From positions 124,001 to 188,000 of the IMG/VR virus record IMGVR_UViG_3300042305_001773: a stretch of 64,000 bases of DNA; one strand, 5' to 3'. The first letter of the stretch is position 1. Each line of letters begins with the position of its first letter. This document shows, in pieces, positions 17,860-30,956 of this stretch. Origin of the DNA: a virus. Under the pieces are notes generated by a model, which did not search any database, had not been told where the DNA came from, and was given only the letters and a program-made list of their open reading frames with translations. Position numbers and translations under genes: made by a program.

Positions 17860-18126
17860 CTATTCGCGCACGACGTGCACGTTGTACCAACGCATTTGAT
17901 TATTCAACCACCTAGCTTCGGCGTCGAGGGCTTCGGCGCGCGAGGTAAACCCTGTGAACAACGGACCACCGACGGGAGCCATATCAGCTATCCATTCGCC
18001 GGGTCTGCGTGCATCTGGTTCGACGTGGCTCGCTCGTTTGATGTCCAACGCGCCGAGCGCTTTCAAATCAATCTCTTCGCCGTAAAGGCATTGAGCCGCG
18101 CCGTTAGGTCGCACAAAAATTTGCAT
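17860..18126 (-). CDS. conserved small protein with CLYGEEIDL and RASHVEPD motifs
   Basis: 88 aa. 'CLYGEEIDLKALG', 'RASHVEPDA' and 'GEWIADMAPVGGP' correspond to a bacterial/phage family of unknown function (typical text 'RASHVEPDGGWWADLSP'). It directly follows the beta-helix gene. The stop lies before the 146-nt leader of the secreted gene. Confidence 0.65.
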   Translation of the reverse strand: MQIFVRPNGAAQCLYGEEIDLKALGALDIKRASHVEPDARRPGEWIADMAPVGGPLFTGFTSRAEALDAEARWLNNQMRWYNVHVVRE

Positions 18127-18133
18127 GGGCGCC

Positions 18134-19132
18134 TCACATCGAGATTAAACGGCGGGTTGGAATCAATTCGTTCATATTTACAGGCGGCCGCAGATTAGCC
18201 GCAGCGGTGGGCCTGTACAGGTTTTGCTGCCGCTGGTCGGAACGCGACACGTTAAACGCGTTAAACTGATCTATCCGATCAATAAACGTGTTTGCAAACA
18301 GCGCCTGATCGTGGGTGTCTACTCGCGTATAACGACCAACAGTCGAGTCGTGCTGCGGGCGGAAAATGATATGCCCGCCGGCAACGACCGAGTGGCCGCA
18401 AAACGCGATAAGCGCATTGATCTGGTCGGCGTTTGCGATGATTGCGTAATCAACAACTTTGAGTCGCGACATTTCAATCGTCGGGTCATCCTCGGCGCGC
18501 GAATAGATCGACACCTGCATCAGCTTGCTTCCAACTACCTGCGCTTTTCCGGCAACAGTTACAAAACCGCGCAATGACGAGCTGCTGACCTGTGCTTCGC
18601 CGCCGATGTACGACATGCCGTCTAGCGCTACTTGGATTGCTACTGCGCGGCCGGCAACGCCGCTGCTGCCGCGAATTGTACAGCTGATTACACGCGCGGC
18701 GTCACGCACAAACGCGTCATCGTACACGTTAGTAGAACCAGATACGGTGCCGCCATATGCGCGAGAGTTGCCCCACAGCTGGCTGTCTTCACCAACGTGC
18801 GCACGACCGCTCACAATAGCGTTATTTCGTACGCGCACATTATCGCGAACGACCGCGTTGCCGCACACGTGAGATCGGTCCATCACGCTGACTCGGCCCT
18901 CTACGGTGGCGTTGTGGTACACCTGCGCCCATTTAGTGACTAGTACAGAATCAGCCACTTTTGCTGTGTCGGCGACCCAGCCATTGCCGTTTACGTGGCG
19001 ATGCGCAAACACGCGTCCACGCCCGTCTTTGAAATCGTGTTTAGATGCTCGCTTTTTTCGGGGTTTTACTGCGGGCATCTCGACCGTCGGCGCTTCAAGT
19101 ACGCCGACGGCCCCGTTTTTCTGTTCCTCCAT
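18134..19132 (-). CDS. left-handed beta-helix-like protein
   Basis: About 332 aa. From residue about 40 onward the sequence has a repetitive pattern of short strands with small/hydrophobic positions every six residues ('VADSVLVTKWAQVYHNATVEGRVSVMD...'), typical of hexapeptide left-handed beta-helix or YdcK-type folds. Such folds occur in acyltransferases and in phage fibre proteins, but no catalytic His is evident. A Lys/Arg-rich N-terminus precedes it. ATG 19132 has GGAG 5 nt upstream; a GTG at 19135 overlaps it. Confidence 0.55.
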   Translation of the reverse strand: MEEQKNGAVGVLEAPTVEMPAVKPRKKRASKHDFKDGRGRVFAHRHVNGNGWVADTAKVADSVLVTKWAQVYHNATVEGRVSVMDRSHVCGNAVVRDNVRVRNNAIVSGRAHVGEDSQLWGNSRAYGGTVSGSTNVYDDAFVRDAARVISCTIRGSSGVAGRAVAIQVALDGMSYIGGEAQVSSSSLRGFVTVAGKAQVVGSKLMQVSIYSRAEDDPTIEMSRLKVVDYAIIANADQINALIAFCGHSVVAGGHIIFRPQHDSTVGRYTRVDTHDQALFANTFIDRIDQFNAFNVSRSDQRQQNLYRPTAAANLRPPVNMNELIPTRRLISM

Positions 19133-20079
19133 CACGACTCCATGGGAAGTACACGACGCCGCGGGGCGTTCGTGATCAGGTTGTCCAGCGCGGTCTTGAC
19201 TTCGCCCATCTGCTGGGTCAAGTTCTGCCGCAAGTTGGTGTTCTTGCGCAGATCTTTCACGTCGACACCCGAAACAATGTCAGTAGCGCGCTGAATTAAG
19301 TTATCCAGCTGCGCGTTTGAGCGAATATTCATTTGCCGGAAGTTGTCATAAAACTCTTTAAAGTTTTCGATTGCAGAGTTTTGAAACTTCTTTTTCGTGC
19401 CGTCCGGTTCGTCGGTTAGCCGCTCGATCAGGTGCGAGATCATGTCCTGTAGCTGCTCGGCAAACGCGTTTTCAGCCATGACTACCGCTGTCTCGAACCG
19501 ATGCTGCACGCGCTGCTGTTCCTGCTGATACAGCTCAGGATTGAACGTCATCAGATAGTTCGGCGGATCGACCGGCGGGTACTCCCACCGAAGATCAAAC
19601 ACGCCTTCTAGCGACGGCGGATAGTCGTTGGGGTTGTACAGATCGCCTAGCTTTTCGCGGGCGGCGACTTTGATCGCTTCGTATTCCAGCTGCAGGTTTG
19701 CGGCCGCCACCACAAGCTGCTCTTTGTATTCGCGCATCCGGGTTTCAAACGCGCCGATGTCAGCCTGCTTGATGAGGCGCACGCCTTCCTGCGGATATGG
19801 CAGCGTCATGGAGCGCCAGTACGCCGACGCCTGACTTTTGAGCGTTGTCAGTACACGATAAGTTGTATTCTTAGTATCAATCAGGCGCTTGGATGCCGTG
19901 ACCAGATCCGTGGCTGCGTGAAACGTATCCGCGGCTTGCTTGGTCTGCGCGTCCGAAAGCTTGCGCTGCGTTCCTAGCCACGAGAACGACAGCTTGACCG
20001 CACCCATCGTCTGACGCAGCTCGCTTGCAGTCTGCTCGACTGTTGTGTTTTCTTCGGGCGTTGTGTCGGCTGTAGACAT
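19132..20079 (-). CDS. DUF3150-like helical protein
   Basis: 315 aa, almost entirely helical. 'SWLGTQRKLSDAQTK', 'LPYPQEGVRLIKQADIGAFETRM', 'YNPNDYPPSLEGVFDLRWEYPPVDPPNYL' and 'ENFKEFYDNF' fit an uncharacterised family that I associate with DUF3150 and with planctomycete/phage homologues. DUF3150 genes are commonly found beside AAA ATPases; here an AAA ATPase lies less than 1 kb upstream, with one small gene between. A partner or adaptor of the ATPase is the likely role. The stop overlaps the start of the beta-helix gene. Confidence 0.5.
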   Translation of the reverse strand: MSTADTTPEENTTVEQTASELRQTMGAVKLSFSWLGTQRKLSDAQTKQAADTFHAATDLVTASKRLIDTKNTTYRVLTTLKSQASAYWRSMTLPYPQEGVRLIKQADIGAFETRMREYKEQLVVAAANLQLEYEAIKVAAREKLGDLYNPNDYPPSLEGVFDLRWEYPPVDPPNYLMTFNPELYQQEQQRVQHRFETAVVMAENAFAEQLQDMISHLIERLTDEPDGTKKKFQNSAIENFKEFYDNFRQMNIRSNAQLDNLIQRATDIVSGVDVKDLRKNTNLRQNLTQQMGEVKTALDNLITNAPRRRVLPMES

Positions 20080-20679
20080 TCAGTCTCCTTCTTCGTCTGT
20101 GTCAAGTTCTTCTTCAATTGTTTGCTCCACCCATTCGTCTATCGCAAACGCCTTGACGAGATCGCGCGGTAATTTCGCTAGATCTTCAAAGTCGCTTGGG
20201 ATGTTGAAATCTGTAAGCTTTCCGTCGCGGTACACACCACAGAACCCTACGCCCGGCTCGAAGCAGTAGGCTGTGATATCAAAACCCTCAACGGTCCGCA
20301 GGTGGTCAAAGAATTGAATTGGGGGCGACCACGCGGAATCAAACGTTAGCGTCAGCTGCGTAGCTTTTGCCGGAAGTCGGCGGGGCGACTGATCTGTCTC
20401 GCGCCCTACGTCCCACTTTGTCCCCCAATGACCGACCTGCCAGTCGTACCAGTTTCTCGCTCCGTACAACTCGATGTTTTGCCGTTCTTGCGCCTCTAAA
20501 GCCAGTTGTGCGTCAGACCCGGTAGGGCCAGCACAACCGGCGATAGTCGCTTTTAATTCGGCTGGGCACGGCAGAAATGTACCCATCAGACAACCACTGT
20601 TCCATGCGCGCACCAACTTGTGCAACTGCTCCGGGTCGTTGTGTTTAAACGTAACTCTGTTGGCGCACCAGTTAGGCAT
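20080..20679 (-). CDS. Api92-like ferredoxin-like protein (DUF1281-like)
   Basis: ATG 20679 (M-P-N-W-C-A-N-R) fits the conserved start of the Api92/DUF1281 family, found in phages and conjugative elements. A TTG at 20694 would only add five residues. 199 aa. 'DWQVGHWGTKWD', 'FDSAWSPPIQFF' and 'EPGVGFCGVY' also match. Function unknown. Lies between the AAA ATPase and the DUF3150-like gene in one operon. Confidence 0.7.
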   Translation of the reverse strand: MPNWCANRVTFKHNDPEQLHKLVRAWNSGCLMGTFLPCPAELKATIAGCAGPTGSDAQLALEAQERQNIELYGARNWYDWQVGHWGTKWDVGRETDQSPRRLPAKATQLTLTFDSAWSPPIQFFDHLRTVEGFDITAYCFEPGVGFCGVYRDGKLTDFNIPSDFEDLAKLPRDLVKAFAIDEWVEQTIEEELDTDEEGD

Positions 20680-20700
20680 AATGTTTGCCGGCAATCCGCA

Positions 20701-20743: not shown

Positions 20744-22228
20744 TTAGCCTTTCGCCGGCGCCGCGACACGGCGCGGGCGCTGCGTTGTAACCGCCGGCTT
20801 ACCAACACGCGTGTAAATACCGCGGTTGTCAGCCGACAGGCAGCGACCTTCAGCCCAGCCGCGCAGACGCTCAATCTGCTCGGCCGACGTCACCGAAATC
20901 GGTACCACGTTCTGTGCCGCTTCAACAAGCGGGATATCGAGCAGCGCCGCGAGCCTGCAGCACGACTTGATCTCGGCGCCGGTCCAGTTGGCGTCATCCG
21001 GCTTTTCCTGCGACTCGTCTACGCCGAAGTGCTTCAGGTAGATATCCCAGATCGCCGCGCGCTGATCGGCGCCGGGCAGATCCACAAAGAAGATACCGTC
21101 GAAGCGCTCGGCGCGGGCAAACGGCGCCGGCAGCTGGCTGGCGTCGTTGCAGGTGCCGATGAAGAACACATCGGACGTGTGGTCGTTGAGCCACGTCAGC
21201 AGCGTGCCGAAAAGACGCGCCGAGACGCCCGAGTCTGTCTGGCCGGAGCTTCCGACGCCGGCAAGACCCTTCTCGATCTCGTCGACGAACAGAACGCACG
21301 GGGCCATGGCGTCGACCTGCTTGAGTGCACGCCGCATATTACCCTCGGACTCGCCCACGAACTTACCCATGAGCGAACCGAAATCCAGCATTACGGTCGG
21401 ACGGCCGACCTCGTTGCCAAGTGCTTTGGCAAACTGCGACTTGCCGCAGCCCGGAGGCGACAGCAGTAGCACGCCCTTGGGGCGCTTTTCTACGTTGGTC
21501 TCACCCTGTCGTCGCATAGCGCGCAGGCAGAAACTCTTAAGGTTTTCGAGACCGCCAAGGTTCTCGAAGTTCGCGTCGCCACGATACAGCGTCATCGTTC
21601 CGCTCTTTTCGAGCGTCTGTGCCTTGATGCCCCAGATCGTATCCGGCGACAGCTTGTTATTGCGCACCAGCGACAGCGCGAACGCGTTCTCGGCCTCCTG
21701 CCGCGTCAGGCCGCGTGAGGCGTCGACGACAGCAGCTACGTCCTGCTCGGCCGGCTTGGCGAACGGAGAGCCGTCCGGGAACAGCTCGTTGCAGACCGTG
21801 GTCAGCTGCGGGAGATCCGGCAGCTCGTGATGCACTACCGTGAACAGCTTCTCAACCTCGGGCTGCAGCTGCAGCACCGGCGCCACGATAATGATATGTT
21901 TGCCCTCGCCCTTGCCCTGCACCACACGATTGGCCAGAGCCTGCAGCACCTCGGGGTTACCAAGGAAGCGATGAAAATTCTTCAGGACGAGCAGCATCGG
22001 CTGCTTGGGCTGCGGCTGGTCGAGAAACCGCAACGCCTGAAGCGGGCCGGGAGCCGGGGCGGCACCCGAATACAGCTGGCGGTCGATGTCCCACACATCA
22101 AAACCCCAGTCCTTTTCTTCAGTTACGCGGCGAATCGACGCAATTGCGTCATCGCACTCCTGTGATTCAACCCAGATGCCGGAGAAGCCGGCGCAAACCA
22201 GCTCCTTGATTTCTTTTTCGAGCGACAC
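20744..22228 (-). CDS. AAA+ ATPase, Ycf46-like
   Basis: 494 aa. Walker A S-P-P-G-C-G-K-S at residues 257-264, Walker B C-V-L-F-V-D-E-I-E at 311-319, sensor 1 G-T-C-N at 358-361, an R-A-E-R-F-D arginine-finger region at about 372-377, and W-T-G-A-E-I near 414 as sensor-2 region. The N-terminal 200 residues resemble the non-catalytic domain of Ycf46-type ATPases. Only one intact AAA motor is seen. The GTG start at 22228 has AAGG about 7 nt upstream. DUF2997 and DUF1257 (Ycf35-like) genes follow upstream in the same operon, supporting a three-gene module. Substrate unknown; in cyanobacteria the pair is linked to carbon-uptake regulation. Confidence 0.75.
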   Translation of the reverse strand: MSLEKEIKELVCAGFSGIWVESQECDDAIASIRRVTEEKDWGFDVWDIDRQLYSGAAPAPGPLQALRFLDQPQPKQPMLLVLKNFHRFLGNPEVLQALANRVVQGKGEGKHIIIVAPVLQLQPEVEKLFTVVHHELPDLPQLTTVCNELFPDGSPFAKPAEQDVAAVVDASRGLTRQEAENAFALSLVRNNKLSPDTIWGIKAQTLEKSGTMTLYRGDANFENLGGLENLKSFCLRAMRRQGETNVEKRPKGVLLLSPPGCGKSQFAKALGNEVGRPTVMLDFGSLMGKFVGESEGNMRRALKQVDAMAPCVLFVDEIEKGLAGVGSSGQTDSGVSARLFGTLLTWLNDHTSDVFFIGTCNDASQLPAPFARAERFDGIFFVDLPGADQRAAIWDIYLKHFGVDESQEKPDDANWTGAEIKSCCRLAALLDIPLVEAAQNVVPISVTSAEQIERLRGWAEGRCLSADNRGIYTRVGKPAVTTQRPRRVAAPAKG

Positions 22229-22267
22229 GTGTGACCTTTGGTTTGGTTTGGAAAAGACCCGCTATTG

Positions 22268-22459
22268 TCAGTTGCTTTCAGCGATCTGCTCGTCGTTGCT
22301 GGCGGCGTAGAACTCGCCCGTCAGCTGCTCGTCCACTTTTGCGCCCAGCGCTTGCTCAAGCGCGCGGGTTGCGTCCTGACAAGAGCTACCGGTAAAGCCG
22401 CTCGTTTCGATCTTGGTGCCGCCCTTGGGGTCGACAATGATTTCGATGGTCTTCGACAT
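22268..22459 (-). CDS. DUF2997 protein
   Basis: 63-aa protein: 'KTIEIIVDPKGGTKIETSGFTGSSCQDATRALEQALG' matches DUF2997, a small family co-occurring with DUF1257 and AAA genes. Beta-alpha fold with one Cys. Spaced 2 nt from DUF1257 and about 40 nt from the ATPase, so it is likely co-translated with them. Confidence 0.8.
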   Translation of the reverse strand: MSKTIEIIVDPKGGTKIETSGFTGSSCQDATRALEQALGAKVDEQLTGEFYAASNDEQIAESN

Positions 22460-22461
22460 GC

Positions 22462-22827
22462 TTAGAAACCTCCCGTCAGGCTGAGTTTGACCGAACCGTC
22501 CGGCAGCATTTCCTCGAACACCGAGTAGCCGCCCTTCTGCGCCTCATAGATCGCCTTTTCCACCGCGTACGCCTGCAGGAAATGATCCAGCTCTTCCTGC
22601 TTGCCCCACGCGCCGTTGTAGTTGTCGTACGCCGCGGCACCCGTCTCCGTGTTAAACACGGCCGGATACTGCCAGCCGGGAAGCTTTACAGCGAGGCCGT
22701 CCGCCGACTGCCCGGCAAACAGCACATGGTGCCCGGCTTTCGGGGCCTCAAGCCCGAGACGCTTGCAGGCCGCTTCAATCGCGGCGGCGTCCTTTACTTC
22801 CGTCTTGATCTGAACAATGTGAGACAT
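22462..22827 (-). CDS. DUF1257 (Ycf35-like) protein
   Basis: 121 aa. Starts M-S-H-I-V-Q-I-K-T-E-V-K-D and contains 'ACKRLGLEAP', 'AVKLPGWQYPAVFNTETGAAAYDNYNG' and 'DHFLQAYAVEKA', as in DUF1257/Ycf35. In cyanobacteria and chloroplasts of algae it sits beside Ycf46. GAGG lies 7 nt upstream of the ATG. A small partner of the AAA ATPase is the likely role. Confidence 0.8.
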   Translation of the reverse strand: MSHIVQIKTEVKDAAAIEAACKRLGLEAPKAGHHVLFAGQSADGLAVKLPGWQYPAVFNTETGAAAYDNYNGAWGKQEELDHFLQAYAVEKAIYEAQKGGYSVFEEMLPDGSVKLSLTGGF

Positions 22828-24490: not shown

Positions 24491-24540
24491 AAAAAGCAAC
24501 TACCGTAGAAAACAGCGGTTATTTGCTGCTTCGGTAGTTG
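24491..24540 (-). terminator. terminator spanning stop of dNTP-ase gene
   Basis: Minus-strand 9-bp stem (CAACTACCG, complement at 24497-24505) with a 26-nt loop that includes the stop codon and a nested CAGC/GCTG pair, followed by CTTTTTG (plus A-run 24491-24495). It ends the transcript of the diphosphohydrolase-like gene. Confidence 0.6.
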
Positions 24541-24881
24541 TCCGGCACGTTGCCGTCTTTGGTGCGAAGTACGCCGGCGTTTAGTTCTGGCCACTTTTCT
24601 AGCGAATGAATAGCGCCGATGACATTCCACGCCGCGTGCCCCAGATGGTCTTCGCTGCGGTCGCCGTTCAAAAAATTATAGATGTGCGCGATCGCGTGAT
24701 TCAGCAGGTCAGAGACGGGCATGCCGTTTTCCCAGTTGTATGGGCCAAATTTTTCAGCCCCTTCGTGGTAGGTCTGCGCGAGCGCCCGCAGACCGATCGG
24801 CGAAATTAGATCGTAACGCACGGCGTCACAATCAGCGCTGCGTACCGCGCCAGTGTCGTACTCGTGACGTTCGTTACTCAT
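24519..24881 (-). CDS. dATP/dGTP diphosphohydrolase-like (DUF5664)
   Basis: 120 aa. 'RYDLISPIGLRALAQTYHEGAEKFG', 'YNWENGMPVSDLLNHAIAHIYNFLNGDRSEDHLGHAAWNVIGAI' follows the DUF5664/dGTP_diPhyd_N family closely, including E/H/D residues typical of the all-alpha NTP-PPase metal site. Members include MazZ-type enzymes of phages with 2-aminoadenine DNA, but most members are found in ordinary phages. No PurZ or special polymerase is in this window. Together with the MazG-like gene it points to nucleotide-pool control. Confidence 0.7.
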   Translation of the reverse strand: MSNERHEYDTGAVRSADCDAVRYDLISPIGLRALAQTYHEGAEKFGPYNWENGMPVSDLLNHAIAHIYNFLNGDRSEDHLGHAAWNVIGAIHSLEKWPELNAGVLRTKDGNVPDNYRSSK

Positions 24882-30883: not shown

Positions 30884-30956
30884 AGCCGGCGGTCGGATTC
30901 GAACCGACGACAGGCAGTTTACAAAACTGCTACTCTACCAACTGAGTTACGCCGGC
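30884..30956 (-). tRNA. tRNA-Thr (anticodon UGU)
   Basis: Folds as a canonical cloverleaf on the minus strand. The 7-bp acceptor stem pairs GCCGGCG (30950-30956 read in reverse) with its complement at 30885-30891; the D-arm has AGTTGGTAGA; the anticodon loop is TTTGTAA (anticodon UGU); the T-loop has TTCGAAT. CCA is not encoded (TTG follows). It is the only tRNA seen in this window, between a GNAT gene and the DenV-like gene. Confidence 0.95.

Follow-up and report, generated by a model that had tools for sequence, protein, structure and literature searches.

A Ycf46-like AAA+ ATPase gene clustered with DUF1257 and DUF2997 genes in a phage genome: a widespread mobile module with a candidate role in protein remodelling

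The 205-kb virus record IMGVR_UViG_3300042305_001773, which belongs to a giant phage, carries, within the 64,000 nucleotides from position 124,001 to 188,000 (the whole of this stretch is called the window, and coordinates refer to it), a gene set that resembles uncharacterised reading frames of chloroplasts and cyanobacteria, and the question raised by this locus is whether these genes form a functional unit and what such a unit would do in a phage. The region 20744-22827 consists exactly of genes for DUF1257, DUF2997 and a classic AAA+ ATPase, which are consecutive on the minus strand and separated by 2 and 39 bp. This trio heads a run of seven consecutive minus-strand genes (gaps of 2, 39, 49, 0, -4 and 7 bp), ordered from the 5' end as DUF1257, DUF2997, AAA+ ATPase, Api92/DUF1281_C-like, helical protein, hexapeptide-repeat gene and a gene designated here as SHVEP.

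The ATPase (20744..22228, minus strand, 494 aa, GTG start) is Ycf46-like and was matched by PF00004 with E=1.7e-27, and the DUF2997 protein (22268..22459, minus strand, 63 aa) by PF11211 with E=2.4e-16 and 59.7 bits against a cut-off of 24.1. The Ycf35-like DUF1257 protein (22462..22827, minus strand, 121 aa, starting with MSH) reached E=0.004 and 17.8 bits with PF06868, below the cut-off of 22.2; its assignment is supported by relatives in the same cluster of isolated phages, which exceed the cut-off (36.8, 32.3 and 24.6 bits), and one iterated profile covers both the window protein and the cut-off-passing DUF1257 proteins of other phages. The first-pass annotation of this DNA, which had likened the adjacent trio to the Ycf46-Ycf35 pair plus DUF2997, was right in its family assignments and in the likeness. 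Further along the run, the gene at 20080..20694 (minus strand) is Api92/DUF1281_C-like (PF18406, 22.1 bits vs a cut-off of 22.8) and that at 18134..19135 (minus strand) encodes a hexapeptide-repeat, left-handed beta-helix-like protein (PF00132, 26.8 bits vs a cut-off of 27). The former has homologous neighbours in close phage relatives only and the latter is almost restricted to this phage clade; both are phage-specific operon members outside the conserved core. All components belong to known families except SHVEP. Elsewhere in the window, a dATP/dGTP diphosphohydrolase N-terminal-like gene (24519-24881; PF18909, 59.4 bits) and a lone tRNA-Thr (TGT) gene (30884-30956, minus strand) were recorded.

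The same three families are represented in cyanobacteria and red-algal plastids by Ycf46 (Slr0374), Ycf35 (DUF1257) and DUF2997. Cyanobacteria usually divide them between two loci, ATPase-DUF1257 and DUF2997-Ycf35, whereas the phage keeps them in one cluster. The published Synechocystis cluster is duf2997-ycf35-fed7 (PMC4284462); it contains a ferredoxin, whereas the phage cluster contains DUF3150-like and SHVEP genes, and no ferredoxin was detected among the ten neighbouring genes of the window module scanned with Pfam. The slr0373-slr0374-slr0376 operon is stress-responsive (PMC7496141), and loss of slr0374 (ycf46) lowers the activity of the carbonic anhydrase EcaB, as cited in the same article; this EcaB-linked role has no obvious counterpart in the phage. 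In red-algal plastids, ycf35 and ycf46 are alike in their habitat-linked presence and loss (PMC5940233). The literature searched, which was covered in part, contains no description of the module as a system or of its partner logic, and the literature found contains no demonstrated biochemical activity for any module member.

Whether the three genes are neighbours by chance was addressed with loci gathered from phage, plasmid, viral and genome data by searching for the ATPase and not for the small proteins, although a few loci were found through DUF1257, which introduces a small bias. After dereplication, 113 AAA loci remained. Both DUF1257 and DUF2997 were encoded near the ATPase in 72 of these, one of the two in 8, and neither in 33 within the scanned range, the last figure indicating that the ATPase can also work otherwise. 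Among 119 genomes of Planctomycetota, DUF2997 was present in 18, DUF1257 in 16 and the ATPase in 37; all 16 DUF1257 genomes were among the 18 with DUF2997 (p=6e-18), and all 18 had the ATPase (p=2e-11), these p-values being optimistic in that shared ancestry within phyla is ignored. In the cyanobacterial phylum (59 genomes), DUF2997 was present in 34, DUF1257 in 30 and the ATPase in 38, the ATPase being counted as homologues of the window protein at E<=1e-30 over most of its length and not as Slr0374 orthologues; nesting was near-complete, and a DUF1257 gene lay directly downstream of the ATPase gene in 21 of the 59 genomes. Partner presence thus tracks the ATPase at the genome level in two phyla. 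The conserved co-occurrence in other phages and hosts that the first-pass annotation had proposed to look for was accordingly found. A coincidental neighbourhood of unrelated genes could draw on the observation that the order of module genes varies between lineages, but it is contradicted by the co-occurrence (72 of 113 loci with both partners, 8 with one), by the genome-level tracking and by the gene fusions described below; it was ruled out, its probability being negligible.

Phage loci L049-L051, virus locus L126 and Clostridium locus L184 encode the two small proteins as a single natural DUF1257::DUF2997 fusion. Fusion of this kind, here in three lineages, typically points to a physical complex and suggests that the two proteins associate; it supports their association independently of the p-values, which shared ancestry makes too optimistic. 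In DUF1257, the Ser (S2) of the MSH start was invariant in 62/62 sequences, and in the AF2 model (pLDDT 91) this start, the most conserved part of the protein, lies in a low-confidence N-terminal tail, which would fit a docking peptide. In DUF2997, a Cys was invariant in 75/75 sequences, and the AF2 model (pLDDT 79) consists of a beta-hairpin and a helix with the invariant Cys at the helix start. Neither the DUF1257 model (at E<=0.001) nor the DUF2997 model (Foldseek) gave a fold match in PDB; sequence and fold searches alike gave no solved relative for either protein, and no known adaptor fold was recovered. Internal homology between the two, suspected from their beta-hairpins, was not supported (hhalign E=0.08 over 12 columns). 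DUF1257 diverges fast, which explains why tblastn of the window protein against GenBank phages gave zero matches even though distant phage DUF1257 genes exist.

In an alignment of 108 ATPases, Walker A K263, Walker B D316/E317, sensor-1 N361 and the Arg finger R375 were invariant (108/108) and the Arg finger R372 was kept in 107. The Walker residues are intact, against the non-functional Walker motifs that the first-pass annotation had listed as a possible refutation of its proposal. At pore-loop position 290, 32 of the 108 have an aromatic residue (F/Y/W) and 59 have Leu, the window protein having F290; the mostly non-aromatic residue leaves threading of a client not assured. The N-terminal half of the ATPase resembles a degenerate second AAA domain, a likeness that is only suggestive (hhalign E=0.0096, probability 4%). 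Among solved structures in PDB, the nearest AAA cores in sequence are those of Cdc48/VCP and other segregase-type modules. Compared with Cdc48/p97, the phage ATPase has one active AAA domain and is without a recognisable N domain, and the putative adaptors of the module are unrelated in sequence to the known adaptors. In six close phage relatives (L015, L016, L026, L039, L040 and L042), the ATPase gene is broken up by about 0.8 kb of inserted sequence, and a group I intron (RF00028, Rfam) was called in all three split loci scanned (L015, L026 and L039). The split point lies between the codons of Walker B Asp316 and Glu317. Homing introns favour highly conserved sites, and insertion at Walker B would fit an important gene in which this is the position under the strongest constraint.

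Protein remodelling is the best-supported reading of the module, given an ATPase core nearest to Cdc48/VCP-type modules and the dedicated partners that accompany it. The putatively degenerate N-terminal AAA-like half and the single active classic AAA domain would build a hexameric motor, to which DUF1257 and DUF2997, acting as one joint cofactor, would deliver or dock a client; complex formation, threading and client delivery are all predicted steps. An ATP-driven protein remodeller with DUF1257 and DUF2997 as its dedicated adaptor pair is held here with about even confidence. Of the remodelling and defence/counter-defence roles suggested by the first-pass annotation, the former is retained on homology only and the latter found no direct support. 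A fifth partner, the fusions, a radical SAM alternative, the introns and the planctomycete and ubiquitin-like context go beyond what that annotation had noted.

The module is widely distributed. Both small partners, each with Pfam support, were found in isolated phages of Rhizobium, Pseudomonas and Tunturiibacter, and both are also present in a Rhodobacter phage, whose DUF1257 was seen by the iterated profile only. A128 and C70 of the archaeal Acidianus tailed spindle virus were recognised by the iterated profiles only, not by Pfam. Plasmids with both partners include those of Paenibacillus, Bacillus, Nostoc and Rhodococcus and the IncC group. The IncC locus (L064, pEC2-NDM-3; ATPase, DUF1257-like, DUF2997, a 377 aa protein and a SHVEP relative) was recovered from 585 plasmid records, of which 567 contain no less than 80% of it, and sits in the conserved plasmid backbone. 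Related ATPases of Treponema (L061) and Klebsiella quasipneumoniae (L065) plasmids are without DUF1257/DUF2997. Outside the phage clade, the nearest ATPases are those of planctomycete contigs (48-56% identity), whose loci keep the order DUF1257-DUF2997-ATPase-DUF3150like-SHVEP, and the phylogeny places the phage clade as sister to a clade in which planctomycetes and viruses are mixed; a planctomycete is a plausible host of the phage.

This distribution bears on the possibility that the module is a device of phage defence or counter-defence in conflicts between mobile elements. Its frequency on phages, plasmids and viral contigs, its location in the conserved IncC backbone and a weak similarity of the ATPase to IetA would be compatible with such a role. 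IetAS/SgiAT-type systems of mobile elements likewise have an AAA+ ATPase from the SpoVK/Ycf46/Vps4 superfamily (PMC10954446), but they pair it with a subtilisin, whereas the phage module is without an S8 protease and its small partners differ. In PADLOC, the similarity of the window ATPase to IetA was generic to AAA proteins (E=7e-16 over the AAA domain), the small partners had no match, and no IetS subtilisin protease was found among the ten neighbours of the window ATPase. With no effector or protease partner detected, and with the same module residing in cyanobacteria, in chromosomes of Planctomycetota and others and in plasmid backbones, a defence or counter-defence function is considered unlikely.

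Beyond the core, two further families accompany the ATPase in the phage. The helical protein (19132..20079, minus strand, 315 aa) had been called DUF3150-like in the first-pass annotation. It has no Pfam match, including PF11348 (DUF3150), and four of its relatives gave sub-threshold PF11348 scores (best E=0.001, 15 bits vs a cut-off of 24.9). On a Candidatus Manganitrophus plasmid (L058), ATPase, DUF1257, DUF2997 and DUF3150 genes stand in a row, and the product of L058:8135-8707, a true DUF3150 protein (37.7 bits vs a cut-off of 24.9), was matched by the profile derived from the phage protein. Because the phage profile matches a true DUF3150 in an equivalent cluster, the window protein is a remote DUF3150 relative; the kinship is thus real through the plasmid homologue, while the window protein itself is not scored as a PF11348 member. 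A DUF3150-like gene was present in 35 of the 113 dereplicated loci. On the same plasmid, the DUF1257 (L058:7474-7904) and DUF3150 (L058:8135-9021) genes appear to be interrupted by shifts of reading frame, which may stem from faulty sequencing or assembly of a metagenome-assembled genome.

The last gene of the run (17860..18126, minus strand, 88 aa, RASHVEPD...GEWIADMAPVGGP) encodes a protein without a Pfam match. Its family, which was found by clustering of module neighbours and has the motif RASHVEPD...W.ADL.PVGGP, is a new, unnamed fifth partner family of the module. Searching with its profile gave matches in 74 loci. Among the 113 dereplicated loci, SHVEP was present in 35, all with DUF1257 and DUF2997, and absent from all radical SAM loci and all partnerless loci.

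Two flavours of the module can be distinguished. The one with DUF3150/SHVEP was found in phages, planctomycetes and Nitrospirota plasmids; in the other, represented by 20 of the 113 loci, a gene for an NrdG-like radical SAM protein, its CxxxCxxC motif intact, lies near the ATPase gene and often abuts it. Among the 80 loci with DUF1257 or DUF2997, 32 have a DUF3150-like gene, 19 a radical SAM gene and none has both (p=2e-5). Since three changes between the two states suffice on the tree, lineage explains part of this exclusion. DUF3150-like and SHVEP proteins may be accessory subunits of the mobile flavour, both of which the NrdG-like radical SAM protein would replace in other lineages.

The second flavour suggests another possible function, in which the ATPase would help to load or activate an enzyme of the Fe-S or radical type, with DUF2997 serving the radical SAM or ferredoxin partner as its small carrier or substrate. 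Such a role in cofactor or metalloenzyme maturation would accommodate the radical SAM genes, which directly abut the ATPase gene in several loci, the ferredoxin gene of the Synechocystis cluster (PMC4284462) and the invariant DUF2997 Cys. However, radical SAM genes are missing from the window and from all DUF3150-type loci (0/32), and the scanned neighbours in the window include no ferredoxin. A glycyl-radical role for DUF2997, which was judged weak, fits poorly because the conserved Gly beside this Cys is not invariant throughout. Maturation is regarded as rather unlikely.

A ubiquitin-like context was encountered in four planctomycete loci (L157, L158, L160 and L168), where genes for Ubl-like, Cys-rich RING-like, Prok-JAB and ThiF proteins adjoin the module. 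The cassette of these loci (L157:9012-11909 in the first) comprises a 72 aa protein, a 73 aa Ubl-like protein ending in KIEGAA, a protein of about 340 aa with a Cys-rich RING-like C-terminus, Prok-JAB and ThiF. In two Nitrospirota elements, PRTRC ThiF/JAB genes lie about 10-15 kb from the module. These loci would agree with a Cdc48-like segregase of a prokaryotic ubiquitin-like pathway, with DUF1257 and DUF2997 as Ufd1/Npl4-like adaptors. Although PRTRC and other ThiF/JAB/Ubl systems co-reside with the module in these elements and planctomycetes, the adjoining cassettes are confined to the four planctomycete loci, the 10-15 kb spacing on plasmids may be mere co-residence, and ThiF and JAB were absent from this phage record and from 14 viral relatives searched, records that may be fragments. 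This assignment carries little probability.

Remodelling with DUF1257 and DUF2997 as adaptors can be extended to an as yet unrecognised, domain-crossing system common to plastid-lineage cells and mobile elements, in which DUF2997 would be a small Cys-bearing carrier or tag and the DUF1257::DUF2997 unit would present clients to the Cdc48-like motor. In some lineages, radical SAM or ferredoxin partners would mature DUF2997, and planctomycetes would add ubiquitin-like conjugation. This extension is speculative and distinctly unlikely. Together with DUF2997, the long-standing "hypothetical chloroplast reading frames" Ycf46 and Ycf35 make up the core of a module that is both widespread and mobile. 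Its presence in an archaeal virus, in cultured phages and on IncC resistance plasmids makes the question accessible to phage and plasmid genetics. The mutually exclusive flavours offer concrete testable partners in DUF3150, SHVEP and the NrdG-like radical SAM protein, and in some planctomycetes an AAA+ motor is linked to prokaryotic ubiquitin-like cassettes.

A separate viral ATPase clade, made up of mycobacteriophages and their relatives (L004, L094, L096, L098, L102, L104, L107, L108, L116, L118 and L119), lacks DUF1257 and DUF2997 and has its own recurrent pair, a protein of about 266 aa and a protein of about 113 aa starting with MPCDT.
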